A DNA stretch of 64,000 bases from a virus. Below, piece by piece: positions 2,477 to 63,668 of this stretch; positions within the stretch are counted from its first letter, which is position 1; the number at the start of each line of letters is the position of its first letter. The notes under the pieces were generated by a model. It was given only the letters and a program-made list of their open reading frames with translations, did not search any database and had not been told where the DNA came from. The DNA lies in IMG/VR virus record IMGVR_UViG_3300046492_000458, positions 1-64,000 of that record, one strand, 5' to 3'. The position numbers were made by a program, and so were the translations under genes.

Positions 2477-3958
2477 GTGCAGCACCGCACCCCTTCTTGT
2501 CAGCTTGGCAACTCCACCGTGGGCGATTCGCGAGGAATCTCCCCCCGGTCGGGTGGCACCCCGTGCACCGAATCCACCCCGGACACGCACGCCCCTACTG
2601 TCGAAATCGAACGCGCGTACGACTACAGTGCAGGTCAGACCGGTCGTGGCGCGCGCCTGCTGGTGACCGCAGCTAGCCAGTGGCTGCACGCCACGACCGG
2701 CCGCATCGCCACATGCGCCCACTCCTGGATGCAAGCCGTCCACTGGGTCGCCGGGAGCGGCCTCTACACGCCCTCCCGCAGCCACGGCCCGCGGTGGGGT
2801 GCAACGACCCTCGCCATCGCGCAGGAGATCGCCGCGCTGAAGGAGTGCCGGCCCGGGATCGACTACCTGATGCGGAAGCTGAAGGCGTCGGAGCGCACCA
2901 TCCAGTACCACCTGTCGATGCTCCGCGAGGCCGGGCTGCTCGTGTACCGGGTGAAGGGCACCCGGCTCTCCTCGCAGCCGAACCAGGCGTCCGTGTTCGA
3001 GCGGGTCATCCCCCTCGAGTTCGATGAGGCGCTCGGGATCCGCACCGTCGGTGCAGGGGTGCAACGGCGCCCGGTCGGGGCCGCCCCGGAGCACCGGAGC
3101 CTGCTCGGGAAGCTCGCGAAGAAGGCCGCCCGGAAGACCCGCCGCCGCCCCCGTCGGACCCCTGTTTCGGGTCGGGCGCGTTGCACCCCAATGGAGGGTG
3201 GTACCTCAGCGTCTTCTTCTGCGGCTAACACTTACTCCCCCCCTGAGAGCAAGCTCGCAAGCGGGGAAGCGAAGTCCCCCACCCAGAAGAAGTCCAACCG
3301 CGGGCCGAAGAAGCTGAACAAGACCGGCCGCCGCTACCAGCTCGCCCGCGAACTCATCCAGCTCGTGCCGTGGCTCAAGGACGCATCCATCCCCCGGATC
3401 GCCTGGATCATCCGCCACGCCGCTGATGCCGGGTGGACGGCCCTCGAGGTCCAGGCCATCGCAGAGCAGGAACGCCCGATCCTCGCCGCCCAGGTGCGCC
3501 GCCCGTCCGGGCTGCTCGCCGACCGACTCGGCAACCTCCACCTGCTGTACACCACCCCCGAGCGCCGCAAGACCGCCGTACTGGCGTGGCAGGAGTCCCG
3601 CGTGCAGGAGCAGGCCCGGCACACCGGCTACGACGAAGTCCACGGCGGCGACCGGCGCCCGGCCAGCGTGAGCGTGCAGGATCTCGTCCGGGAAGCGTTC
3701 CGCCGCAACCAGGAGATCGCCGCGGGCCCGGTCCCCGCCGGGGAGTGCTGGGACATCACTGAGGACACCCGCACCGAACTCGAGGACCTGGACCGCGAAC
3801 TGATCAAGGCGGTCCGCGCCGAAGCATCCGCCGACCTGTCGCTGATCACCAGTGCCCTCGCCAACGGCATGACCGAGCGGGACGCCCGCCGCCTGTACAC
3901 CAACTGGCTCGTCGACCAGGCCCTCGCCGCCGACCGCCGACTCACCCCCGCCTTCTGA
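2477..3958 (+). CDS. Winged-helix replication-initiator-like protein
   Basis: About 493 aa. GTG 2477 is chosen because AGGCAGG lies 6 bases upstream; a TTG at 2438 would extend it but has poor spacing. Around residues 85-175 (SGLYTPSRSHGPRWGATTL, then an ERTIQYHLSMLREAGLL helix-turn-wing) is a winged-helix DNA-binding domain of the type found in actinobacterial plasmid replication/HTH proteins. A basic Lys/Arg-rich linker follows (about 215-300), then a second helical domain containing RYQLARELIQLVPWL and a C-terminal Asp/Glu-rich helix. It is followed by a small gene and a DciA-like gene, which supports a role in replication start. It could instead be a transcriptional regulator; the family call is from memory. 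Confidence 0.6.
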   Translation: MQHRTPSCQLGNSTVGDSRGISPRSGGTPCTESTPDTHAPTVEIERAYDYSAGQTGRGARLLVTAASQWLHATTGRIATCAHSWMQAVHWVAGSGLYTPSRSHGPRWGATTLAIAQEIAALKECRPGIDYLMRKLKASERTIQYHLSMLREAGLLVYRVKGTRLSSQPNQASVFERVIPLEFDEALGIRTVGAGVQRRPVGAAPEHRSLLGKLAKKAARKTRRRPRRTPVSGRARCTPMEGGTSASSSAANTYSPPESKLASGEAKSPTQKKSNRGPKKLNKTGRRYQLARELIQLVPWLKDASIPRIAWIIRHAADAGWTALEVQAIAEQERPILAAQVRRPSGLLADRLGNLHLLYTTPERRKTAVLAWQESRVQEQARHTGYDEVHGGDRRPASVSVQDLVREAFRRNQEIAAGPVPAGECWDITEDTRTELEDLDRELIKAVRAEASADLSLITSALANGMTERDARRLYTNWLVDQALAADRRLTPAF

Positions 3959-3969
3959 CAGGAGTCCCG

Positions 3970-4206
3970 ATGGCACCCGCCGACGAACTTCGTGCCGCAG
4001 CCCAGACCCTCCGCGATGTCGCCCCTGAGATCACCGGTCGCCTGGCTGGACTCGCCGACCCGGTCGCCGAATGGCTGGAGCACGAAGCGGAGATCGATCG
4101 CACCGCCCACCTCTACACCGAGCGCGAACCGTGCGCCTGGTGCGGAAGCCCGGCCAACCATCACGCCCTCACCGTGGCCCGCGCCCTCTTGGGAGGCCAG
4201 TCGTGA
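3970..4206 (+). CDS. Small zinc-knuckle-like protein, 78 aa
   Basis: ATG with a good AGGAG 6 bases upstream; its stop overlaps the GTG of the DciA-like gene. It is mainly acidic helix (EITGRLAGLADPVAEWLEHEAEID) followed by CAWCG...NHH, a possible CxxC/His metal site near the C-terminus. The position between a Rep-like and a DciA-like gene suggests a part in the same replication operon; the function itself is not recognisable. Confidence 0.65.
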   Translation: MAPADELRAAAQTLRDVAPEITGRLAGLADPVAEWLEHEAEIDRTAHLYTEREPCAWCGSPANHHALTVARALLGGQS

Positions 4207-4994
4207 CCGACACTCCGCAGTTGTCCGGCCGGGACCTCGCCCGGCAGGCCCTCGCCGCCTACAAGAGCACCGCCCGAACCGCACCCACCAACACCCCGAG
4301 CCGACCCAAGACGCGGCGCACCGCCCGTACCGGCTCCGGCCGCGACCCCATCAGCCTGGCCTCCGCCATCGCTGGTCTCGGTGCCGACATCCACCTCGAA
4401 GCGGGCGTCGCCGGCGGCAGCGTCATCGACCAGTGGCCCACCCTGTGCCCGCAGTACGACGGCTTGGTGCAGCCCATCCACTACGACGAGAACACCGGCC
4501 GCCTGGACCTCCGCCCGGGCAGCCACTCCTACGCCGCGCAACTCCGCCTCCTCGGCGGCCAGCTCGCCAAGCAGATCAACGACAAGATGGGCCGCCCGGT
4601 CGTCCGGACGATCCGCGTGCTGCCGGTCGGGAACGTCGCCACGGCAGAACAGCAGGCCGCGGCACCGGAGTCAGCCGCCCCCGAGGCGCCCGTGCGGACC
4701 CGGGAGACCGCATCGGCCGGCTACCGGCGCACCCTCGAAGCACACCAGGCGGCCCAGGCCGACGGCGAGCCCACCAACCCGTACGTCGTCGACGCCATCG
4801 AGCGCCAAGACCGGATGCTGGCCGACCCCCACAACCGGGAACCGGAGACCGCGTTCACCGATGCCGTCGCCGAGCTCGAGCGGCTCACCGCCCCGACCGT
4901 GGATCGCGCCGAGATGATCCGCCGGGCCGCGATCGCCCGCAAGCGCGGCGGCAGCGATGCGGCACCGGTACGCCGCGCCTTCGACGTCGCATGA
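4203..4994 (+). CDS. DciA-like (DUF721) protein, possible replicative helicase loader
   Basis: 263 aa from a GTG overlapping the previous stop. Residues about 5-20 (GRDLARQALAAYKSTAR) and 45-140 match the layout of actinobacterial DUF721/DciA proteins: RDP.SLASAI, then VIDQWPTLCPQYDGLVQPIHYD, then L.L.PGSHSYAAQLRLLGGQLAKQIND..GRPVVRTIRVL. In bacteria lacking DnaC/DnaI, DciA helps load the DnaB helicase. The C-terminal 110 residues are an acidic, probably disordered tail not usual in chromosomal DciA. Placement two genes after a Rep-like gene fits a role in recruiting host helicase to the plasmid or phage origin. Family call is from sequence recall; activity is inferred. Confidence 0.72.
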   Translation: MTDTPQLSGRDLARQALAAYKSTARTAPTNTPSRPKTRRTARTGSGRDPISLASAIAGLGADIHLEAGVAGGSVIDQWPTLCPQYDGLVQPIHYDENTGRLDLRPGSHSYAAQLRLLGGQLAKQINDKMGRPVVRTIRVLPVGNVATAEQQAAAPESAAPEAPVRTRETASAGYRRTLEAHQAAQADGEPTNPYVVDAIERQDRMLADPHNREPETAFTDAVAELERLTAPTVDRAEMIRRAAIARKRGGSDAAPVRRAFDVA

Positions 4995-5437
4995 ACACCG
5001 CTACCGCGCACCTTGCGCTCATCCTGCTGACCAGCTCGAGGAAGTGGCCCGATCCGCAGTTTCTCGAGGACACGCTCCTCGACGTGTGGCACGACGCCCT
5101 CCAAGACGGCTACGACGGCATCGAGCTGATGCACGGCACCGCCGAAGGCGGAGACACGATCGGCGACGCATGGGCCATCCGCCATGAAGTTCCCCGTCGT
5201 CGCCGGCCCGCCGACTGGAACGGCCCCTGCGCGCCCACCTGCCCGCCGGGACACCGGCGCATCAACCGCCGCGGCCTCGAGTACTGCCCCCTCGCCGGAC
5301 ACCGCCGCAACCAGGGGATGGTCGACGAGGGCCCCCTTCTGTGTGTGGCCGCCTCGTACCAGAACTCCAGCGGCACAGCGGACTGCATGCGCCGGGCGAA
5401 GAAGGCCGGGATACCCGTCCTTCGGATCACCGGCTGA
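4991..5437 (+). CDS. SLOG (DUF2493-like) nucleotide-binding protein
   Basis: 148 aa, ATG overlapping the DciA-like stop. LILLTSSRKWPD near the N-terminus and ELMHGTAEGGDTIGDAWAI around residues 36-54 match the SLOG/YspA-type Rossmann motifs (a G/S-S-R strand-loop and an HG...G.D...WA loop). The C-terminus, ADCMRRAKKAGIPVLRITG, is typical of the last helix and strand. SLOG domains bind nucleotides or ADP-ribose-like ligands and occur in stress and conflict systems. The middle contains extra CxxxCPPGH...C residues that may bind metal. Role on this element unknown. Confidence 0.7.
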   Translation: MNTATAHLALILLTSSRKWPDPQFLEDTLLDVWHDALQDGYDGIELMHGTAEGGDTIGDAWAIRHEVPRRRRPADWNGPCAPTCPPGHRRINRRGLEYCPLAGHRRNQGMVDEGPLLCVAASYQNSSGTADCMRRAKKAGIPVLRITG

Positions 5438-5660: not shown

Positions 5661-5813
5661 ATGCCGCAGACCGCCACCCCGCCCCACGTTTCCGCCTCGC
5701 CTCGGCAGGTCGGGCCAGCGCCCGCGTGGGAGCGGCACAAGCTGTTCCAGGAGCCCGCCTACACGACGGTCCTCGAGGAGCCCGCGGAGGACGAAGAAGA
5801 CGGGGAGTGGTGA
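5661..5813 (+). CDS. Small acidic hypothetical protein, 50 aa
   Basis: ATG with GAGGAG 6 bases upstream. Pro/Thr-rich start and very acidic end (EEPAEDEEDGEW). Its last codons run into the first parS-like palindrome, so it is the last gene of the rightward operon before the partition locus. No family recognised. Confidence 0.45.
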   Translation: MPQTATPPHVSASPRQVGPAPAWERHKLFQEPAYTTVLEEPAEDEEDGEW

Positions 5814-5876
5814 CCACGTGGTCACCACCTTTGGGTCAGACAGACGACAAGGTGGTGACCACGTGGTCACCACCTT
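5807..5876. repeat. Two long perfect palindromes, putative parS centromere
   Basis: Two copies of GGTGACCACGTGGTCACC extended by further palindromic bases: the first spans 5807-5828 (22 bp) and the second 5849-5876 (28 bp, flanked by AAGGT/ACCTT). Their centres are 45 bp apart, close to four helical turns. There is no loop, so these are protein-binding DNA sites rather than terminators. They sit directly beyond the 3' end of the parB-like gene, which points to a centromere bound by that protein. Confidence 0.75.
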
Positions 5877-5900: not shown

Positions 5901-6824
5901 CTAGGCCTGCTCCTCCAGGTTCCCGGCCAGCTCTTCCAGCAGTTCACGCACCGCGCTCTCGAGTTCCTCCGCCTCCCGACGCGCCCGGGCGAGGTCGGTC
6001 TCCGCCAGGGCGCGGATCCGTTCCACCGCCTTCAGTGACTCGCTCGGCGTGAGCACCTTCGGCCCCGTCTTCTTCTCCGCCTCCTGGGTGAGCTCCTTCG
6101 GCGGGCCGTAGCCGAGGAAGTTTGCGGCATCCCGCAGCGTCTTGTCGATGACGTTGCCGTGCCGGGCCGCCTCCAGCCACGTCTCCCGCACCGCCTCGGT
6201 GCCGTGCGTCTCGAGGATCGGCACCAGAATCCGCAGGGGGCGTTCCTTCAGCTCCTGGGTGGTGATGTCCTCGAGTGCCTGCGCCACCGGCATCACTCGG
6301 ATGATGTTGTTGGCCTGGTGCTTCTTGATGCCGAAGCGGGCCTCGGCGAGCTCCCCGAACGTGTCGTGTCCGGCGACCTTGTGCAGCTCCTCCACCTTCA
6401 TCGCCCGCAGCCGGAGCCCGAGCCCGATCAGTTTCTGCTGTTCGGCCCGTTCGTGGTTGGCGCGGGCCGCGTACTGCACGGCGAGGATGCCCCGCGCATA
6501 GAACTCCAGCCGGGTGGCCGGGTCGTCGCTGTCCGGCTCGGTGAAGTCCGGCATCGGCAGGTACCCGGTCGCCGCGGTCCTGACGGCCGGCACAGATTCC
6601 GTTCCCGCCGATTCCGTCTCCGCGGGCTCCGCTACGGCCAGAACGGCGGCCGGGGGTGCGGCAGGTGCCGGGACCTGCGCCACCACAGCCGCGGGCGCGG
6701 CATGCTGCTCGCGTAGCTTGCGCTGGCTGTCCTCCCACTGCCGCAGCTGGTCCTCGCGGGACTGGTCACCGCTTCCGCCGGAGCCGACGACCGGGATGAC
6801 GGGGGCGACCTTCTTCGAGCTCAC
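5901..6824 (-). CDS. parB: ParB-like centromere-binding protein
   Basis: 307 aa, GTG start overlapping the parA stop. The N-terminal 100 residues are Ala/Pro-rich and likely disordered. Residues about 105-215 are helical and contain TFGELAEARFGIKKHQANNIIRVMPVAQALEDI, a plausible helix-turn-helix. A C-terminal coiled coil follows (KAVERIRALAETDLARARREAEELESAV). It lacks the GERR box of chromosomal ParB, so it is the plasmid-type partner of ParA. The palindromes at 5807-5876 lie 25 bases beyond its stop. Identity rests mainly on operon position after parA and on the HTH plus coiled coil. Confidence 0.7.
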   Translation of the reverse strand: MSSKKVAPVIPVVGSGGSGDQSREDQLRQWEDSQRKLREQHAAPAAVVAQVPAPAAPPAAVLAVAEPAETESAGTESVPAVRTAATGYLPMPDFTEPDSDDPATRLEFYARGILAVQYAARANHERAEQQKLIGLGLRLRAMKVEELHKVAGHDTFGELAEARFGIKKHQANNIIRVMPVAQALEDITTQELKERPLRILVPILETHGTEAVRETWLEAARHGNVIDKTLRDAANFLGYGPPKELTQEAEKKTGPKVLTPSESLKAVERIRALAETDLARARREAEELESAVRELLEELAGNLEEQA

Positions 6825-7966
6825 GCCGCCAACTCCTTGGCCAGGGCGCGCATGACCTGCGCCTGACCGGAGTCAGGGGCGTGCTCGAGCAGCGGGATCT
6901 GGTAGTCGGATGCCTCGCGGCCCTCGATGGCGTCCTTCAGGGTGGCCAGCACACCGGGTGTGGTGAGCTCGCTCCACCCGTCGTAGAAGGCGCGGGTGAC
7001 AACGCCCTTGCGGGAGTCGTAGGCGTTCACGACGAACCCGAGCTGGTCGACGACCGCTCCGGTCATCCGGCTGTGGGTGTCGATCTGCTCGTTCAGCATC
7101 TCGTAGGCGTCGAACGAGGAACGGTCCGACCAGACGGGCATCAGGATTCCGGAGTGGTCGATCAGCTCGCCCGGGCGACGCTGGACGTAGTTGATGGCGA
7201 GGTCTATCGCCAGCCCCAGGTTCGGAGGGCCGTCCAGGACGATGACGTCGTAGGAGTCCTCGACGGGGGCGAGCGCGCGGGCCAGGCAGGTGTCGCGGCC
7301 GACCTGGAGGAGCGCCAGCTTGGCGTCCATCAGGAAGGCGTCCTTGCTCGCGGGCAGAACGTGGAGACGGCCGCCGAACCGTTCGTGGGGGAGCGCGACG
7401 AGGGAGCGGGCCAGGTGCTTGTCGGCCTCGCCGAGCATGTGCGTGAGGAGACTGTCGGACCCGGTGGGAAGGCCAGGGATCTGCAGGCGGCTGGTGAGGT
7501 GCCCTTGGGGGTCGTAGTCGACGAGGAGAACGCGCAGGCCGGCCTCCGCCATGGCCTGGGCGAGTCCGGAGGCCACGAACGTCTTGCCGACACCACCCTT
7601 CTGGTTGCCCACCAGGATCCGCTTCACGGGCTGGGCGACGAGGCGCTCGTCGGGGGATGGGTGGGCCTTCAGCCACAGGGTGATGGCCTGGGCCATGCCC
7701 TGGACCTTCGTCAGACTGCGGGAATCGCACTCGCTTGCGAACCGGTGCGGGCCCCCAGCGGGAAGGAACACGCCCCACGACTTCGATCCCCTGGTCTCGA
7801 TGTCCGGGGAGCCCGGGGTGTCGTACCAGAGACTGAGGGCGGAGGCGACGGCGTCCTGCATGTTCAGCCCGTGCTCGGCTGCCCTGATGCGCAGGTCACG
7901 GCGTAGCTCAGGAGTCAGGTTAACGAGCAACTTTTCGCGCGCTTCTTCGGCGCCTGGGTGGGTCAT
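6821..7966 (-). CDS. parA: ParA partition ATPase with an N-terminal DNA-binding-like extension
   Basis: 381 aa. The deviant Walker A motif GNQKGGVGKT is at about residues 118-127, followed by LLVDYDPQGHLT (Walker A' region) and VIVLDGPPNLGLA (Walker B). This is a ParA/Soj ATPase that segregates plasmids by interacting with ParB. The first 60 residues (LTPELRRDLRIRAAEHGLNMQDAVASALSLW) look like a ribbon-helix-helix or HicB-type element and could mediate autoregulation. ATG 7966 is preferred to a TTG at 7975. A TAATTT -10-like hexamer (7972-7977 on the complement) is so close to the ATG that the message may be leaderless. Confidence 0.93.
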   Translation of the reverse strand: MTHPGAEEAREKLLVNLTPELRRDLRIRAAEHGLNMQDAVASALSLWYDTPGSPDIETRGSKSWGVFLPAGGPHRFASECDSRSLTKVQGMAQAITLWLKAHPSPDERLVAQPVKRILVGNQKGGVGKTFVASGLAQAMAEAGLRVLLVDYDPQGHLTSRLQIPGLPTGSDSLLTHMLGEADKHLARSLVALPHERFGGRLHVLPASKDAFLMDAKLALLQVGRDTCLARALAPVEDSYDVIVLDGPPNLGLAIDLAINYVQRRPGELIDHSGILMPVWSDRSSFDAYEMLNEQIDTHSRMTGAVVDQLGFVVNAYDSRKGVVTRAFYDGWSELTTPGVLATLKDAIEGREASDYQIPLLEHAPDSGQAQVMRALAKELAA

Positions 7967-8691
7967 GGCGAGCAAATTACCAGGCGATCATGTTTTGTGA
8001 GGCGCACGTGGCGCGGCCCGACCGCCTGCGCCACCCGAACGGGCCTGCCAGGCAAGGGAGATGGCTCGGGAACACTTTGCCCGCGAGGTAAAGAGCGGGG
8101 CCTCGTCATGCGCCGACCAGATTCGGTCGAATACGTGCCGGATGACGGGGTTTATCTGTCACCCACCTGAGTGATCCCTGTGCAAGCCCCTTCCCGGAGT
8201 GCATATATGCGCCTTGGGTGGGGGGTGCTGCCGGTCCCCACGGCCGGCGGCTGCACGGCCGGGGACAGCCCCTTGTGGATCGCAGCCCTCCGGGGGCGGC
8301 CCGGCCGCGCTGGGCACCCGGCCCGTACAGAAACCGGGGGAACGCATCTACCTGCGTGGGGAGTTCCCGGATTAGACTGCCGTCAACGAACGGGCATGCC
8401 CGGGAGGAACCGATCGGCCCCTCGAAGTGCCTGACCATTTGGCGCCCGCAGGGGCTGTTCCCGTATCTGGATGTAGCCTCTCCGTCACCCTCTGGCCAAA
8501 ACCGTATCGAATGCATGTCAGTAGGTGGTCAATACCCGGCAGTGTCTTACCGACCGCCTGGTATCGATGCCACAGTGACAAGTCCGAGCGTCTGGACTGG
8601 CAGCCGGACGTGCGGGGGGCCCGGGCGGAGCCGACACCGACCGGGCGTACGAGGACCCTTCCCACTTCTGCCGGAGGAGCGGAGACGCCCC
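7967..8691. other. Divergent intergenic region upstream of parA
   Basis: About 725 bases with no convincing gene. It contains the parA promoter region, a short AT-rich palindrome GCATATATGC near 8198, and an imperfect inverted repeat between about 8335 and 8371 (CCGGGGGAAC / GTTCCCGG) followed by a TAGACT -10-like hexamer near 8374. These could form a rightward regulated promoter for the gene at 8692. Nothing in it resembles an RNA gene. Confidence 0.4.
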
Positions 8692-14558: not shown

Positions 14559-15103
14559 CGCTCACCGATACCGCCCCCGCCATAGACCGGCAACTCTGCC
14601 TCACCATCGTCGTCCACGGCGACCCGGCCCCCCAGGGATCAAAGCGCTACGCCGGTCACCGCCGAAACGCCCGCTCCGGACGCGTCAGCGCCGTCCTCCT
14701 CGAACAGTCCACACGGGTCAGGCCCTGGCGGGAACGCGTGCACGCTGCCGCCCTGGCCGCCATACGGGAGTACCCGACCTGGAAGCCCCTCGACGGACCC
14801 CTCTCCGCAGACATGATCTTCGCCGTACGGACCAAACCGCAGTCCAAGCCCGTCTGGTGGCTCAAGGCCCTGCCCTGGTCCAAATACCTCTGGTGGCGCC
14901 CCGCATCATCCCCCGACCTCTCCAAGCTCCTCCGCTCCACCGAAGACGCCCTCACCACCGCCCGCGCCTGGAAGGACGACGCTCGAGTCGTCGAATACGG
15001 CCAACTCGCCAAGTACTACGCCGGCGACCCCAGCCACCCCGACGTCCTCACCGAACCTGGCGCGATCATCCGCCTCTACACCCTTCCCGGAGCCAACCGA
15101 TGA
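14555..15103 (+). CDS. rusA: RusA-family Holliday junction resolvase
   Basis: 182 aa, ATGA overlap with the previous gene. LTIVVHGDPAPQGSKR at the start, LDGPLSADMIFAVRTKP in the middle and the acidic catalytic region PDLSKLLRSTEDALTTARAWKDDARVVEYGQLAKYY (about residues 118-155) match RusA nucleases, which cut four-way junctions during phage recombination and packaging. The key Asp residues of the PDxxKL and DDA segments are present. The position beside WhiB, SSB and DUF5131 genes indicates the early phage replication/recombination block. Confidence 0.85.
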   Translation: MTLTDTAPAIDRQLCLTIVVHGDPAPQGSKRYAGHRRNARSGRVSAVLLEQSTRVRPWRERVHAAALAAIREYPTWKPLDGPLSADMIFAVRTKPQSKPVWWLKALPWSKYLWWRPASSPDLSKLLRSTEDALTTARAWKDDARVVEYGQLAKYYAGDPSHPDVLTEPGAIIRLYTLPGANR

Positions 15104-15561
15104 CCGCCACCGCGACCGAAACGCGCCTCCCTATGAGTCCTGCCGCGCCCGACACCGATTGGCGGACGGGCGCCGCCTGCCGGTACGTCGACCCCGACCT
15201 GCACTTCCCGACGGCCCACACGCCCGGCTGGCTGGAGCAAATCGATGATGCCAAGCAGGTCTGCGCTGGGTGCCCGGTAAGGAAGGCCTGCCTCGAGTGG
15301 GCGTTGAAGACCGGGCAGTCGGCCGGAGTGTGGGGCGGTCTGTCGGAACGTGAGCGCAAGGGCCTGCGCCAGCCGAGGGCAACATCCCTGGACAAGTGCC
15401 TGAGCCAGCGGGCATGGATTGAGAAGCAGCTCGACGCGGGGGTCACTCAGAAGTCGATCGCAGGCCAATTGGGCGTCGACAAGACGGCGGTATCGAAGGC
15501 AATCAGGCAGTTCAACGCAGAGCGGGAGCAGGCTGCTGCCGCACAGGGGGTGACGGTGTGA
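15100..15561 (+). CDS. WhiB-family regulator fused to a C-terminal HTH
   Basis: 153 aa. Cys27, Cys55, Cys58 and Cys64 form the C-x27-C-x2-C-x5-C iron-sulfur cluster of WhiB proteins, followed by GVWGG at residues 76-80. After a basic linker the C-terminus contains RAWIEKQLDAGVTQKSIAGQLGVDKTAVSKAIRQF (about 105-140), a clear helix-turn-helix. Chromosomal WhiB proteins normally act through sigma factor and lack such a domain, so this fusion may bind its own DNA site. Overlaps both neighbours. Confidence 0.85.
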   Translation: MTATATETRLPMSPAAPDTDWRTGAACRYVDPDLHFPTAHTPGWLEQIDDAKQVCAGCPVRKACLEWALKTGQSAGVWGGLSERERKGLRQPRATSLDKCLSQRAWIEKQLDAGVTQKSIAGQLGVDKTAVSKAIRQFNAEREQAAAAQGVTV

Positions 15562-39280: not shown

Positions 39281-39415
39281 TTCGGGGCTCCAGGAGGGCG
39301 TGGTGGGGGCTTGTCGGGGATGCTGTGGCACGCCCGTCCTGGAGTTTGGGGAGGGTCCGGGGCCGGCCGATCCTGGCCTGCTAGCTGTGTTCAGCCGGTC
39401 CCGGGTACGTGTAAG

Positions 39416-39452
39416 ACACTAGCCCATCTTCTATTACGTACGCAATACAAGA
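39416..39452 (-). promoter_or_regulatory. Conserved promoter/operator, copy 4
   Basis: On the minus strand TATTGCGTACGTAATA (39432-39447) contains -35 TTGCGT (39440-39445), followed after 18 bases by -10 TAGTGT (39416-39421). The core matches the other copies exactly. It starts the leftward run 39280 to about 35349 and lies just after the replication gene. Confidence 0.87.
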
Positions 39453-39468
39453 TGGGGTGTGGTGCCCA

Positions 39469-40608
39469 TCACGCCCGAACTTCGCGGCGCTCCCGGCTCC
39501 GCTGGCACTGGGGGCACATCTCTTCGCCCTCCTTCAAAGGGCGCCCGCACAACCCGTCGTTGCCCTGGCACTCACCCAGGCGGACCCGCGGAACGATCGT
39601 CTCGGGATCCCAGGCCGCTGGAGTCGGCGTCGGCGTGTCCTTTGGCGCCCAGTCAGCCTTGAACTGCCCGACATGCGGCACAGGACCGGACAGAGCATCC
39701 CGCAACCTGCGGGCAACGATCGCGCCCACCGTCGTACGGATCGGATCGGGTAGCGGCCGCCCTGCGATGACCTGCCGGACCTGCTCCCGTGTCCAGCCCT
39801 GCATCAACATGCCGGCCACAGCCAGCCCTTGATCCTGGAGCGTCTTTCCCGTCAGGAGGAACTCCGGCTGCTGGGCACCGATCGCCTGAAGCAGATCGAC
39901 GCCTGGATTCCTTCCGATCTGATGGGGGACCGCTGAACCGTCCGTCCCTCCGTCCTTCCCGCTGCCAGCATCTGCCGCGGAAGGAAGGACGGGTTCTAGG
40001 TCCGGTTCATAAGGACTGGTTCGGGGGTCTTCAAGTCCCCCCGTTTGGGACTGAGAGTCCCCCCGTGGAGGACTGACAGTCCCCCCGCGGCCCCGCATGG
40101 GCCCCACGTCACGAGTGGACTGAGAGTCCCCCCGTTCCTCGGGCGGCTCGGCGGCGACGGCTTCGACCTCTTCAACCTGCGCCGTGGAGCGCTTCCTGCC
40201 CTTGTCGCTGCGGGTCTTCTTGGCTGGCGGAGGTGCGATCGGGGGACGGTTCTCGGGGGTCAGAGGCGTCTTGCCCCTTTCCCTCCGCTCCTTGTTGATC
40301 CGCTCGATGTTCGGGAACCAGTCGTACGGGATCAGCAGGTCCCACACGGGCGGCCGGCGGTCGGCACGGATGTACTCAGCCGCCTTCGGATCCCCAGGGC
40401 CGATCAACTTGCGTGCAGCGAGACCGGTCAGCGTGCGCTGGACGGTCTTTGGGTCCACAGTCGTCCGCTTCGCCACCGTTGAGCGGGCAGGGAAGGCGGC
40501 ACAGCCATCCGAATCGGCCTTCTCGGCCAACATGACCAGGATGGCGAACTCGTTGACGTTGGCGATCGGCGCGTCGCTCGTAGCCCAGAGGACAGCTTCG
40601 AAACTCAT
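39469..40608 (-). CDS. O-like replication protein with winged-helix domain
   Basis: 379 aa. Residues 1-105 (SFEAVLWATSDAPIANVNEFAILVMLAEKADSDGCAAFPARSTVAKRTTVDPKTVQRTLTGLAARKLIGPG) form a winged helix like that of phage O and plasmid replication proteins. The middle 100 residues are charged and disordered, and the C-terminal part has GLAVAGMLMQGWTREQVRQVIAGRPLPDPIRTTVGAIVARRLRDAL (DnaD-like or helicase-loader-binding helices) and a CxxC...C zinc ribbon (CGRPLKEGEEMCPQCQRSRE). The iterons at 40034-40134 lie within the disordered part, as in lambda O. An initiator role is therefore probable. Confidence 0.7.
   Translation of the reverse strand: MSFEAVLWATSDAPIANVNEFAILVMLAEKADSDGCAAFPARSTVAKRTTVDPKTVQRTLTGLAARKLIGPGDPKAAEYIRADRRPPVWDLLIPYDWFPNIERINKERRERGKTPLTPENRPPIAPPPAKKTRSDKGRKRSTAQVEEVEAVAAEPPEERGDSQSTRDVGPMRGRGGTVSPPRGDSQSQTGGLEDPRTSPYEPDLEPVLPSAADAGSGKDGGTDGSAVPHQIGRNPGVDLLQAIGAQQPEFLLTGKTLQDQGLAVAGMLMQGWTREQVRQVIAGRPLPDPIRTTVGAIVARRLRDALSGPVPHVGQFKADWAPKDTPTPTPAAWDPETIVPRVRLGECQGNDGLCGRPLKEGEEMCPQCQRSRERREVRA
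40034..40134. repeat. Iterons inside the replication gene, putative origin
   Basis: GGACTGAGAGTCCCCCCG occurs at 40048-40065 and 40117-40134, as GGACTGACAGTCCCCCCG at 40070-40087, and in part as AGTCCCCCCG at 40034-40043. Each full copy contains the inverted pair GGACT/AGTCC. The copies are read in all three frames of the enclosing protein, so the DNA sequence and not the amino acids is being conserved. Spacings are 22 and 47 bases. This resembles the lambda origin, where iterons sit inside gene O. Confidence 0.75.
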
Positions 40609-60177: not shown

Positions 60178-60643
60178 CGGCGGTGCGCGTGCACGCTCCG
60201 GTCCTGCCCCTGACCCGACTGCGCTGCGGCGTGACCGGGATGCCGGCGAGTGGACGATCCTGCCTGCGGAGGGCCGACAGGGCGCAACGCCCGAGTGGCC
60301 GCTGACCGAGCAGACGATCCGTGAAGCCGACCTGTGGGGCGCCTTGTGGCGGAAGCCACAGGCGATCATGTGGGAGCGGTATGGCCAGGAGTTCGAGGTG
60401 GCGCTGTACGTGCGCCGCTTCTCCGAGGCCGAGTTGATGGACTCCCGGGTGAATCTGTCGACGCTAATCCGGCAGATGGCGGACTCGCTGGGTCTGACGA
60501 CGCCGGGGATGCGGGCGAACCGGTGGCGGATCGCGGTCGATGAGGTCGCGGAGCGCCGTGAGGGGGCCGGGAAGCAGCAGCCGGCCACGCGGCGCGCGGC
60601 TCGGGATCGTTTCAAGGTCGTGCCCGGTGACGGGGGCGAGTGA
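60170..60643 (+). CDS. Phage terminase small subunit
   Basis: 157 aa, start overlapping the previous gene. SGGARARSGPAPDPTALRRDRDAGEWTILPAEGRQGATPEWPLTEQTIREADLWGALWRKPQAIMWERYGQEFEVALYVRRFSEAELMDSRVNLSTLIRQMADSLGLTTPGMRANRWRI is the usual Streptomyces phage small-terminase pattern. It recognises the packaging site and hands DNA to the large subunit, whose gene overlaps its end. Confidence 0.85.
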   Translation: MPSGGARARSGPAPDPTALRRDRDAGEWTILPAEGRQGATPEWPLTEQTIREADLWGALWRKPQAIMWERYGQEFEVALYVRRFSEAELMDSRVNLSTLIRQMADSLGLTTPGMRANRWRIAVDEVAERREGAGKQQPATRRAARDRFKVVPGDGGE

Positions 60644-62264
60644 GCAGGTCGTCCAGTGGCCCACGCTCGGCTTTCTGATCGCGGACTGGGTTGAGGCGCA
60701 CTGCGTCATCCCGGACGGGTTCTCTGCTGGTGAGCCGTATGTTCTGACGGACGAGATGCTGTGGTTCTTCCTGAACCACTACCGGGTGAAGCCCGGGGCG
60801 ACGCGCGAGCGCTCGATGTTGTCGCCAGCGTCGGCGTTCCATTTCCGGCGTAGCCAGCTGGTCCGTCCGCAGAAGTGGGGCAAGGGACCGTTGACTGCCG
60901 CGCAGGTCTGCGTGGAGGGTGTCGGGCCTGCCGTGTTCGCCGGTTGGGCGGCTGGCGGCGAGGTCTACGACTGCCGGGTTCACGGCTGCGGCTGTGGCTG
61001 GGTGTTCGAGTACGAGCCGGGCGATCCGATGGGTATGCCGTGGCCGACGCCGCTGATTCAGATCACGGCGTTCTCGGAGGAGCAGACCGACAACATTTAC
61101 GGCGCCCTCAGGCCGATGATCGACAAGGGTCCGTTGTCGGAGCTGATTCCGAAGACGGGCGAGGAGTTCATCCGCCTTCCGGGTGGCGGCCGCGTCGACA
61201 CGGTGACGTCGTCGGCCCAGTCTCGCCTCGGCCAGCGCGTGACGTTCGTGCCTCAGGACGAGACTGGCATCTGGACGACTGAGAACAAGATGCAGAAGGT
61301 TGCCGATACGCAGCGGCGTGGCCTGGCGGGTATGGGTGGCCGGTCGACGGAGACGACGAACGGCTGGGACCCGTCGGAGAACAGCGTGGCGCAGCGGTCG
61401 TTCGAGGCGAAGGTCCAGGACATCTTCCGGGACTTTCGCAAGGCGCCGGCCGATCTGAACTACGCCAAGAAGACGGACCGTCGGAAGATCCATAAGGCGG
61501 TGTACGGCGACTCCTGGTGGGTCGACCTCGACGCGATCGAGGCCGAGGCCGCGGAGTTGCTGGAGCGTGACCAGGCGCAGGCGGAGCGGTTCTTCGGGAA
61601 CCGGATCACGGCCGGTACCGGTACATGGCTGGCCCGGGATCGTTGGGATCTGCGGGCGGTACCCCGTGAAGTCCCGGACGGTACGCCTGTTGTCCTCGGC
61701 TTCGACGGCTCGGACATCGACGACTGGACCGGCATCCGCGCCGAGACGCTGGACGGCTATCAGTTCACACCGGTGTACAGCTCGCTGGAACTGCCGACTA
61801 TCTGGGATCCAGCCGAGTGGGGCGGTCAGACGCCGCGGCTTGAGGTAGATGCGGCGGTGGATGAACTGATGCGTCGCTATCGGGTGGTGCGCATGTACTG
61901 CGATCCGCCGTACTGGCCAACCGAGGTCGATACCTGGGCGGAGCGGTACGGCGAGAAGCGCGTGGTCCGCTGGTACACGCACCGGGATGTTCAGACGCAT
62001 GCGGCCTGCGAGCGCCTGTTGACGGACGTGACAAAGGCCGACAGCGGATTCACGCACGACGGTTGCGAAGACACATCGGCGCACGTGGGGCACGCGCGGA
62101 GGGCGGCCCGCACCGCTGGCCGCTACGTGCTCCGGAAGGCCGCGCCCCATCAAAAGATCGACATGGCGATGGTGTCCATCCTCGCCCACGAGGCGGCGGG
62201 CGACGCAATCGCAGCTGGCCAGGCCCGGCCGAAGGTTTCCCGGAAGACGACTGTGATGCGCTGA
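60627..62264 (+). CDS. Phage terminase large subunit
   Basis: 545 aa from GTG 60627, overlapping the small subunit by 17 bases. RSQLVRPQKWGKGPLTAAQV (about 76-95) is the Walker A region, VTFVPQDETGIWTTENKMQKV (about 205-225) the Walker B and coupling region, and VVLGFDGSDIDDWTGI (about 354-370) with MYCDPPYW the nuclease centre. ATP-driven packaging and cutting of phage DNA is the known role. It starts the head-gene order terminase, portal, minor head. Confidence 0.94.
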   Translation: MTGASEQVVQWPTLGFLIADWVEAHCVIPDGFSAGEPYVLTDEMLWFFLNHYRVKPGATRERSMLSPASAFHFRRSQLVRPQKWGKGPLTAAQVCVEGVGPAVFAGWAAGGEVYDCRVHGCGCGWVFEYEPGDPMGMPWPTPLIQITAFSEEQTDNIYGALRPMIDKGPLSELIPKTGEEFIRLPGGGRVDTVTSSAQSRLGQRVTFVPQDETGIWTTENKMQKVADTQRRGLAGMGGRSTETTNGWDPSENSVAQRSFEAKVQDIFRDFRKAPADLNYAKKTDRRKIHKAVYGDSWWVDLDAIEAEAAELLERDQAQAERFFGNRITAGTGTWLARDRWDLRAVPREVPDGTPVVLGFDGSDIDDWTGIRAETLDGYQFTPVYSSLELPTIWDPAEWGGQTPRLEVDAAVDELMRRYRVVRMYCDPPYWPTEVDTWAERYGEKRVVRWYTHRDVQTHAACERLLTDVTKADSGFTHDGCEDTSAHVGHARRAARTAGRYVLRKAAPHQKIDMAMVSILAHEAAGDAIAAGQARPKVSRKTTVMR

Positions 62265-62282: not shown

Positions 62283-63668
62283 GTGGCCCTCGACCTCGAG
62301 CCGGATGCCTGGCTGAAGCGGCTGATTGCGGCGCACGACAACGACCTGCCGCAGCTGCGGTTGATGGACAGCTACTACGAGGGCACGCAGCCTCTGTCGT
62401 ATCTGGCGCCGGAGATCCAGTCGGAGCTGTCGGACCGGATGCGGCAGCTGGTCATCAACTGGCCGCAGCTGGTCGTCGATGCGCTGGATGAGCGGCTGGA
62501 CGTCGAGGGTTTCCGGTACGCGGACTCGGAGACGACGGCCGAGGATCTGTGGTCGGTGTGGCAGGCCTCCGACATGGACGAGGGCAGTCAGCAGGCCCAC
62601 GTTGACGCGCTGGCGCTGAAGCGCTCCTATGTGATCATCGGTGCGAACGAGACCGACGAGTCGACGCCGATCATCACGGCCGAGTCCGCGCTGGAAGTCT
62701 TCGCCGAGCGGGATCCGCGGACGCGTCAGGTGATGGCGGCGATCAAGCGGTGGGATGAGCCCGCGGCGGCCGGGTCCGCTCCGGTGAAGTGGGCGACGCT
62801 GTATCTACCGAAGAAGCGGTGCACGTTCGAGCAGCAGAAGGGCGTCTGGGTCGAAGTCGACCGGGACGAGCACAACGTGGGCCAGGTGCTGGTGGTACCG
62901 CTGGCGAACCGGCCGCGGCTTCGGCATCTGGACGGCACGTCTGAGCTGCGTTCGGTGATTCCGATCTCGGACGCGGCATGCAAGATCGCCTCGGACATGA
63001 TGGTGTCTGCGGAGTATCACGCGATGCCGCGCCGGTGGGCGACGGGCATGTCCCGGGATGATTTCGCCGACGAGAACGGGCAGCCGCTCGGCGCAATGTC
63101 GTCACTGGCGGGCCGTCTGTGGGTGAACGAGGGCGAGAGCGTCAAGTTCGGCCAGTTCCCCGAGGCGCAGCTCTCGAACTTCCACGAGACGATCAACGTT
63201 CTTGCCCGGCTGGTGGCCGCCCTGACAGGCCTGCCTCCCGCGTTCCTCGGCCTGGCCACCGACCAGCCGCCGTCGGCGGATGCGATCCGTGCGTCGGAGG
63301 CCCGCCTGGTGAAGCGTGCGGAACGCAGGCAGCGGGCGTTCGGTGAGGCGTGGGAGAGGGTGATGAGGCTCGTTCTGCTCGTGCGGGACGGCGACTTGGA
63401 CCCGCGGACCCGCAAGCTGGAGACGGTCTGGCGGGACCCGGCGACGCCGACCTACGCCCAGAAGGCGGACGCGGTCGTCAAGCTGCACACCAGCGGCATT
63501 CTGCCGACGGAGCAGGCCTGGGAGGACCTCGGCTACTCGGCGGTGCAGCGGGACCGGATGCGGGGCATGCAGGATGAAGCCCTGACCCGTATGACCGCGA
63601 TGGATCTACAGCAGCTGTCTACGGCCCAGCCGGAGCCGCAGCCCTTCGAGGCCCCTCCGGGAGGCTGA
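62283..63668 (+). CDS. Phage portal protein (SPP1 gp6-like)
   Basis: 461 aa, GTG start. RLIAAHDNDLPQLRLMDSYYEGTQPLSYLAPEIQSELSDRMRQLVINWPQLVVDALDERLDVEGFRYAD is the SPP1-gp6 family opening; the C-terminus has LARLVAALTGLPPAFLGLATDQPPSADAIRASEARLVKRAERRQRAFGEAWERVMRLVLLVRDG, typical of portals. It forms the dodecamer through which DNA enters the capsid, and it follows terminase as expected for a siphovirus. Confidence 0.94.
   Translation: MALDLEPDAWLKRLIAAHDNDLPQLRLMDSYYEGTQPLSYLAPEIQSELSDRMRQLVINWPQLVVDALDERLDVEGFRYADSETTAEDLWSVWQASDMDEGSQQAHVDALALKRSYVIIGANETDESTPIITAESALEVFAERDPRTRQVMAAIKRWDEPAAAGSAPVKWATLYLPKKRCTFEQQKGVWVEVDRDEHNVGQVLVVPLANRPRLRHLDGTSELRSVIPISDAACKIASDMMVSAEYHAMPRRWATGMSRDDFADENGQPLGAMSSLAGRLWVNEGESVKFGQFPEAQLSNFHETINVLARLVAALTGLPPAFLGLATDQPPSADAIRASEARLVKRAERRQRAFGEAWERVMRLVLLVRDGDLDPRTRKLETVWRDPATPTYAQKADAVVKLHTSGILPTEQAWEDLGYSAVQRDRMRGMQDEALTRMTAMDLQQLSTAQPEPQPFEAPPGG

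Follow-up and report, generated by a model that had tools for sequence, protein, structure and literature searches.

The stretch of DNA analysed here (the window) comprises 64,000 of the 65,644 bases of an IMG/VR virus record, with 83 window genes called by our own script. That the locus lies on a mobile element was part of the original prediction and is borne out by the terminase, portal, SSB, ParA and DUF2637 genes of the record; head genes (terminase, portal), partition genes (ParA) and a DUF2637-type plasmid gene being all present, the element is a Streptomyces phage-plasmid of the ZL12/pSLE1 type. A circular Streptomyces plasmid of 88 kb, similar in gene order, has a DciA protein 82% identical to that of the window, and the DciA of the plasmid-phage ZL12 is 48% identical. 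Relatives are mostly of 83-95 kb, so the record may be incomplete. Features are listed in Table 1. The region separating the rep operon from the parA gene pair, which converges with it, contains two perfect 22-bp palindromes, GTGGTGACCACGTGGTCACCAC, at a spacing of 45 bp. Their half-sites match nine times in the window and at most five times in shuffles, and the two palindromes are a likely partition site. Two WhiB-like genes, one of them long and divergent, are also carried by the element (138-809 and 15100-15561).

Table 1. Features of the rep-dciA region and of the phage and partition parts of the element.
Feature	Position	Strand	Remarks
CTTGTCAGCTT, conserved block 5' of rep, phage-plasmids only	2496..2506	+	alignment; possible promoter/operator
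rep, Rep-like initiator, 431 aa	2663..3958	+	likely start GTG 2663; N-terminal winged helix, disordered linker, C-terminal helical domain
GGGGTGCAACG copy 1	2796..2806	+	inside rep
GGGGTGCAACG copy 2	3056..3066	+	inside rep
Conserved DNA segment in rep linker, candidate replication origin	3161..3286	+	about 126 bp, 42 codons
GGGGTGCAACG copy 3 (CGTTGCACCCC on the + strand)	3179..3189	-	first box of the conserved segment
78-aa ORF between rep and dciA	3970..4206	+	without family match
dciA homologue, 263 aa	4203..4994	+	GTG start; PF05258, fold match, profile alignment
DUF721 (KH-like) domain of DciA	4356..4619	+	PF05258 match
Element-specific C-terminal tail of DciA	4620..4991	+	conserved PVxTRExAxxGY stretch
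SLOG-family gene (YspA/DUF2493)	4991..5437	+	PF10686, 43.3 bits, cut-off 28.2; ATGA overlap with dciA
22-bp perfect palindrome GTGGTGACCACGTGGTCACCAC, copy 1	5807..5828		parS-like
22-bp perfect palindrome GTGGTGACCACGTGGTCACCAC, copy 2	5852..5873		parS-like
Probable ParB-type partner of ParA	5901..6824	-	position only; no Pfam match
ParA partition ATPase	6821..7975	-	AAA_31, 89.8 bits; PHROG ParA-like, 2.9e-33
Large terminase	60627..62264	+	phage part of element
Phage portal protein	62283..63668	+	PF05133, 173 bits

The genes rep, the 78-aa ORF, dciA and the SLOG gene form a tight operon, with an 11-bp gap followed by two 4-nt overlaps; dciA begins within the GTGA that it shares with the preceding ORF, behind a likely ribosome-binding site (GGGAGG, 4190-4195). 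As predicted, dciA is the second gene behind a Rep-like gene of the winged-helix kind. The helix-turn-helix matches of Rep are weak: HTH_5 is found below its cut-off (E 0.001), and the PHROG replication-initiator and O-like matches are weak too, the O-like ones being short (E 1.4e-3 and 0.024). The model of Rep is poor (pLDDT 64, with linker residues 163-204 mostly under 50), and a fold search with this low-confidence model gave a top E of 2.8 and no solved relative. Both the weak initiator label and the poor model count against the interpretation given below. Rep homologues are present in 162 of 72,556 plasmid records. Using a profile built from 11 Reps, a Rep gene was found on the same strand and at most 900 bp upstream of dciA in 41 of 47 distinct element loci, the other six being plasmid copies (L016, L020) or short loci.

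The Rep and DciA cassette is common to phage-plasmids and to otherwise dissimilar linear plasmids. The linear plasmid pFRL2 matches only 5 of the 83 window genes at E 1e-3 (Rep, DciA, the SLOG protein, a WhiB gene and DUF2637), so that the cassette is the main thing that the two kinds of element have in common, and Rep, DciA and the SLOG protein are grouped together in both. pFRL2 also encodes its own DnaN sliding clamp (39320-40453), a further host replication gene on an element, and another linear plasmid (L020, 1-4828) carries a pair of dciA genes separated by about 3.7 kb, with the Rep studied here next to neither. The SLOG gene is adjacent in 12 of the 47 loci, and in 4 of the 47 a second DUF721-like piece precedes SLOG, in frame or beside it. 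In one of these (L081, 1435-2184, the same element as L031 and L045) a DUF721 core is fused to SLOG (YspA) directly 5' of a full-length dciA, and both domains are above the Pfam cut-offs (DciA 32.1 bits, YAcAr 50.8 bits), while in L011 this is true of the SLOG part alone. The L081 fusion is a possible second, nucleotide-sensing loader subunit. A DnaB_C profile search of the window's own record gave no match, which makes recruitment of the host DnaB plausible; matches above the cut-off were obtained in 4 of 16 element records, which may use their own helicase, and none in the other 12, the window's included. Four related phage-plasmids (L055, L056, L057 and L058) have their own DnaB-type helicase besides DciA.

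Regarding the protein encoded at 4203-4994, sequence and fold model agree that it is a true DciA/DUF721 protein, as had been predicted. The profile search by which the original prediction proposed to check this point gave a significant PF05258 match (E 5.7e-6, 26.9 bits with a cut-off of 24), covering residues 52-139 and profile positions 2-89 of 89; dciA is the sole match in the whole record (E 4.3e-8), and the NCBIfam DUF721 equivalog model stays far under its cut-off (32.5 of 246 bits). PF05258 is also the sole Pfam match at E up to 1, the AAA+ domain that characterizes DnaC and DnaI being absent. In an AlphaFold2 model derived from 28 sequences, the core (residues 71-144) was predicted with a pLDDT of about 95, and its top structural match was Deinococcus radiodurans DciA (7ykm; Z 9.3 over 77 residues, Foldseek E 1.7e-3; Foldseek, VIA), followed by Vibrio cholerae DciA with DnaB (8a3v; Z 8.2, Foldseek E 1.9e-2). 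Domain I of DnaA (4tps) ranks after the DciA structures, in agreement with the reported resemblance of DUF721 to the DnaA N-terminus (PMC5720831). No DciA was found in a PDB sequence-profile search with the element-type proteins, so that the likeness to the solved structures is visible by fold comparison alone.

Alignment with hhalign showed that the element protein is colinear with the chromosomal DciA of Streptomyces over residues 5-147 (probability 99.7, 35% identity), the N-terminal extension of actinobacterial DciA being kept, so that the two share the N-terminal helix and the DUF721 domain. The core residues are conserved. The aromatic residue tested in mycobacteria, W113, reads as Tyr in the window DciA according to the alignments, which counts against the interpretation given below. 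After residue 147 the element protein continues into a tail of about 117 aa, in which the PVxTRExAxxGY stretch is kept among 18 element proteins and which is missing from the chromosomal proteins read, these ending soon past the domain. The tail was described as long and acidic, and this holds for residues 140-263 as a whole (pI 5.2) and for residues 140-225 in particular (pI 4.5), but not for the last 38 residues, which are basic (pI 11.5). For comparison with the highly basic character expected of DciA, the whole protein has a pI of 9.2 and its N-terminus one of 11.8.

Element-type DciA was detected in 196 of 72,556 plasmid records (193 bear the name Streptomyces), in 2 of 50,697 phage records, both ZL12, and in 18 viral-contig and 10 genome-contig loci. 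No chromosomal-type DciA was confirmed in viral contigs with search patterns that reach close relatives only. PF05258 is found in 148 of 150 Streptomyces genomes, 23 of which have at least two matches (counted by eye from the table), among them two known element carriers (G015 and G017), and in 249 of 296 genomes of the phylum, where five have at least two matches; two of these five (G017 and G090) are also in the 150-genome Streptomyces sample. A strong match of the chromosomal kind (87-93 bits) is present in all ten genomes carrying an element copy. The host thus has its own DciA and the element copy is in principle unneeded, a fact that weighs against a role in replication of the element. 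The gene gyrB was found within 1.5 kb of dciA in 45 of 45 Streptomyces chromosomal loci, in 10 of 22 other actinobacterial loci and in none of 71 element loci, a number that includes redundant ones. The window dciA does not occupy this housekeeping place beside gyrB and is a second, element copy.

A DciA tree was built with 114 rows and 141 columns, from which row L083 had been dropped because of low coverage and the duplicates L001 and L026 excluded. All 47 element rows group in a single clade (SH-aLRT 99), which has a long stem branch (0.48) and within which there are a phage-plasmid branch of 33 rows (support 98) and a linear-plasmid branch of 13 rows (support 92). A quick tree placed this clade beside the Streptomyces chromosomal clade, with support 0 for the joint group, and a tree in which the elements were joined to 38 of the 45 chromosomal rows exceeded the free search by 13 log units and was not rejected (p-AU 0.68). 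Of these results, we rely only on the monophyly of the elements. A transfer from chromosome to element would fit the single element clade among the actinobacterial DciAs, and the donor may have been a Streptomyces chromosome or that of another actinobacterium. With respect to the original prediction, the proposed reverse direction of transfer is thus compatible with the tree, and the novelty that it implied for a mobile DciA is not supported: one instance of dciA mobility, in Streptomyces, was already mentioned by Brézellec in 2016 (PMC5109545), and many plasmid copies among the matches listed already bear the annotation 'DciA family protein'.

Besides the protein-coding features, part of the rep linker is under an unusual constraint at the DNA level. 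The excess of identical synonymous codons among 31 rep genes was mostly between 0 and 0.2, and rose to 0.44 between 3146 and 3290. With the four divergent Reps removed (27 genes), codon identity of the segment 3161-3286 was 0.828, while other 42-codon stretches had a mean of 0.62 and a maximum of 0.694 and 200 codon shuffles reached at most 0.504. Its mean GC content is 0.634, versus 0.715 in the remaining rep, and is lower in all 27 genes. At residues shared with the window, third-position agreement was 0.88 in the segment, 0.70 in the part of rep before and 0.66 in the part after; for the five linear plasmids alone, the values were 0.88, 0.62 and 0.56, respectively. Plain DNA identity of the segment was above that of both flanks in 18 of 26 pairs, indicating that the signal is mainly at synonymous sites. 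No such peak was observed when the dciA codon alignment was treated in the same way (maximum 0.17). The encoded protein is predicted to be disordered, and the spacing of the segment is constant in phage-plasmids and linear plasmids alike. A synonymous-type excess of 0.25-0.32 also extends over 2480-2560, ahead of the likely start of rep. An overlapping gene was discarded as the cause of the constraint, frame +2 being open in none and frame +1 in 18 of the 27 genes, as was an antisense gene, the frames being open in 8, 10 and 6 of the 27. RNA structure was likewise rejected, with none of 13 predicted pairs changed on both sides, and an Rfam search of the segment gave no matches.

By blastn, the segment is present in 97 of the 72,556 plasmid records, which all belong to Streptomyces or Kitasatospora. 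In large plasmids with a Rep protein of about 39-58% identity, the identity of the segment is about 80-87%. The box TTGCACCCNAATGNAGG was found in 34 viral-contig stretches, 20 of them in a Rep frame and 14 elsewhere, chance matches being expectable in a collection of such size; DciA follows 18 of the 20 Rep-frame stretches, and the other two end within 1 kb. Among seven segment-bearing plasmids inspected, chosen from the 60 matches listed, a DciA or DUF721 protein lies behind Rep in four, while three have Rep and the segment without an intact adjacent DciA. Remnants of DciA were detected in two of these three, by profile in L185 (E 2.7e-6) and by eye in L179, and none was established in L182. 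In these plasmids DciA may be dispensable, or the replicon may be dead. The four divergent Reps, including that of ZL12, have another linker, which counts against the interpretation given below. In these ZL12-type genes (L007, 10187-11572, and L011, L034 and L043), the DNA of the different linker also looks conserved among the four.

With regard to repeated motifs, GGGGTGCAACG occurs three times in the 64 kb, every copy in rep, and in 8 of 21 rep regions examined the GTGCAAC cores of copies 2 and 3 are inverted relative to each other at a distance of 121-123 bp. One short inverted repeat (columns 79-87 with 97-108) hardly varies. Repeat and k-mer searches revealed no iteron array in or around rep, which counts against the interpretation given below. 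Its conservation makes the segment 3161-3286 a candidate replication origin. The origin of pFRL2 has been published as a 2.2-kb HindIII fragment (PMC3212956); this fragment is absent from the pFRL2 sequence, where there is a HindIII site just behind dciA, and the published clone is not placeable.

In phage lambda, the origin lies within the initiator gene O, and the gene for the helicase loader, P, follows. The cassette described here resembles this layout in having an initiator gene followed by that of a loader, in the constraint at the DNA level within the initiator gene and, if the candidate is correct, in an origin inside that gene. There are differences as well: lambda O carries iterons within its gene, versus three GGGGTGCAACG copies here with one pair kept in some relatives. 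As regards the lambda O family, the window Rep gives the short matches mentioned above, and its low-confidence model no fold match. P is unrelated to DciA, so that the cassette would be O-P-like in its working and not a member of that family. P and DciA use a common loader site on DnaB, P covering the back of the ring and DciA sitting at its edge (PMC9912922). DnaC shares this LH-DH site, and DciA from V. cholerae and DnaC from Escherichia coli are interchangeable in vitro (PMC9912922), which makes a DciA in the place of P mechanically sensible. Replicons of the pSLA2/SCP1 type, in which rep1 with its iteron is accompanied by the helicase gene rep2 (PMC13152386), are also two-gene central replicons of Streptomyces linear plasmids; here the second gene encodes a loader instead of a helicase.

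These facts lead us to propose, with moderate confidence, that 2663-5437 is a phage-plasmid replication cassette that works like lambda O-P, in which a captured DciA takes the place of P and recruits the host DnaB. Rep would bind its own origin, most likely 3161-3286, through its winged-helix half and melt or mark it. DciA, made from the same message and translationally coupled within the Rep operon, would bind the host DnaB through its N-terminal helix and DUF721 domain like the chromosomal protein (both halves of Mycobacterium tuberculosis DciA bind DnaB; PMC5720831), the extra tail would tie it to Rep or to the origin, and DnaB would be loaded there rather than at oriC. In this manner the element probably steers the replication helicase of its host to its own DNA. 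A wider version, which we regard as somewhat less than an even chance, is that Streptomyces elements independently built an O-P-like replicon with an origin in the linker and a captured DciA tied by its tail to Rep, with one cassette serving circular phage-plasmids and linear plasmids; in part of the family, the SLOG protein, which in some cases is joined to another DUF721 core, would act as a nucleotide-sensing switch.

The segment in rep could alternatively be regulatory (an operator for Rep, an attenuator or the site of another protein), with the origin elsewhere and DciA still aiding replication. The lack of a detected iteron array, the second conserved block upstream of rep and the nearly invariant inverted repeat would suit such a role, which we nevertheless consider unlikely, because the position within the gene, the constant spacing, the lower GC content in every gene and the absence of covariation fit a DNA site for an initiator better than an RNA element.

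Other explanations concern DciA itself. It could act on the host, titrating or diverting DnaB during phage growth or topping up the supply of loader, as might be thought from the chromosomal-kind copy in all ten host genomes and from the six of 47 loci, some of them plasmid copies, without a Rep neighbour; the tight operon with Rep, and its conservation in linear plasmids that have a MOBF relaxase and are not known as phages, make this improbable. Slightly less probable still is that it is a DUF721 paralogue which has lost DnaB binding and serves as a cofactor of Rep or, with the SLOG protein, in nucleotide-dependent control. The long stem branch, the change from Trp to Tyr, the new tail and the SLOG genes and fusions described above could be read in this way, but the N-terminal helix and the DUF721 domain are colinear with the chromosomal protein and the core residues are kept. 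A replication cassette with a DciA that recruits DnaB is the reading we prefer.

As for earlier knowledge, the only statement on a mobile dciA found in the open-access literature is that of Brézellec (PMC5109545), which very likely refers to the same phenomenon, dciA on a Streptomyces element; it consists of one sentence and Supplementary Fig. 4, and the text itself gives no cassette, origin or plasmid count. ZL12 (pZL12) and pSLE1 are elements of the same kind, with the order Rep-like gene, small ORF, DciA-like gene, and then ParA and ParB. In ZL12 the gene is labelled 'putative Tra3-like', and its Rep is 25% identical to that of the window. From the chromosomal DciA encoded in the dnaA-gyrB region of Streptomyces and other Actinobacteria, the element copies differ in lying in a Rep operon and not before gyrB, in the conserved tail and in forming a separate clade. 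No report of an origin inside rep was found in the open-access literature, and an earlier report of the replicon is possible in key Streptomyces plasmid papers beyond that scope. In the same literature we found no description of the Rep and DciA cassette or of its occurrence in two dissimilar kinds of element, nor of the tail, the link with SLOG and the DNA segment within rep.

Phage loaders of the DnaC/DnaI type have replaced bacterial DciA at least seven times (PMC5109545), whereas in the present case an element has taken up the ancestral loader itself into what is probably its replication cassette. If this is true, the elements provide small and exchangeable replicons where both the initiator and the DNA site at which DciA acts are defined, and the mechanism of loading by DciA, still unsolved, could be tested outside its essential chromosomal context. 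An origin within the gene would also explain the replication of some 97 plasmid records of Streptomyces and Kitasatospora, and could be of use for vectors.
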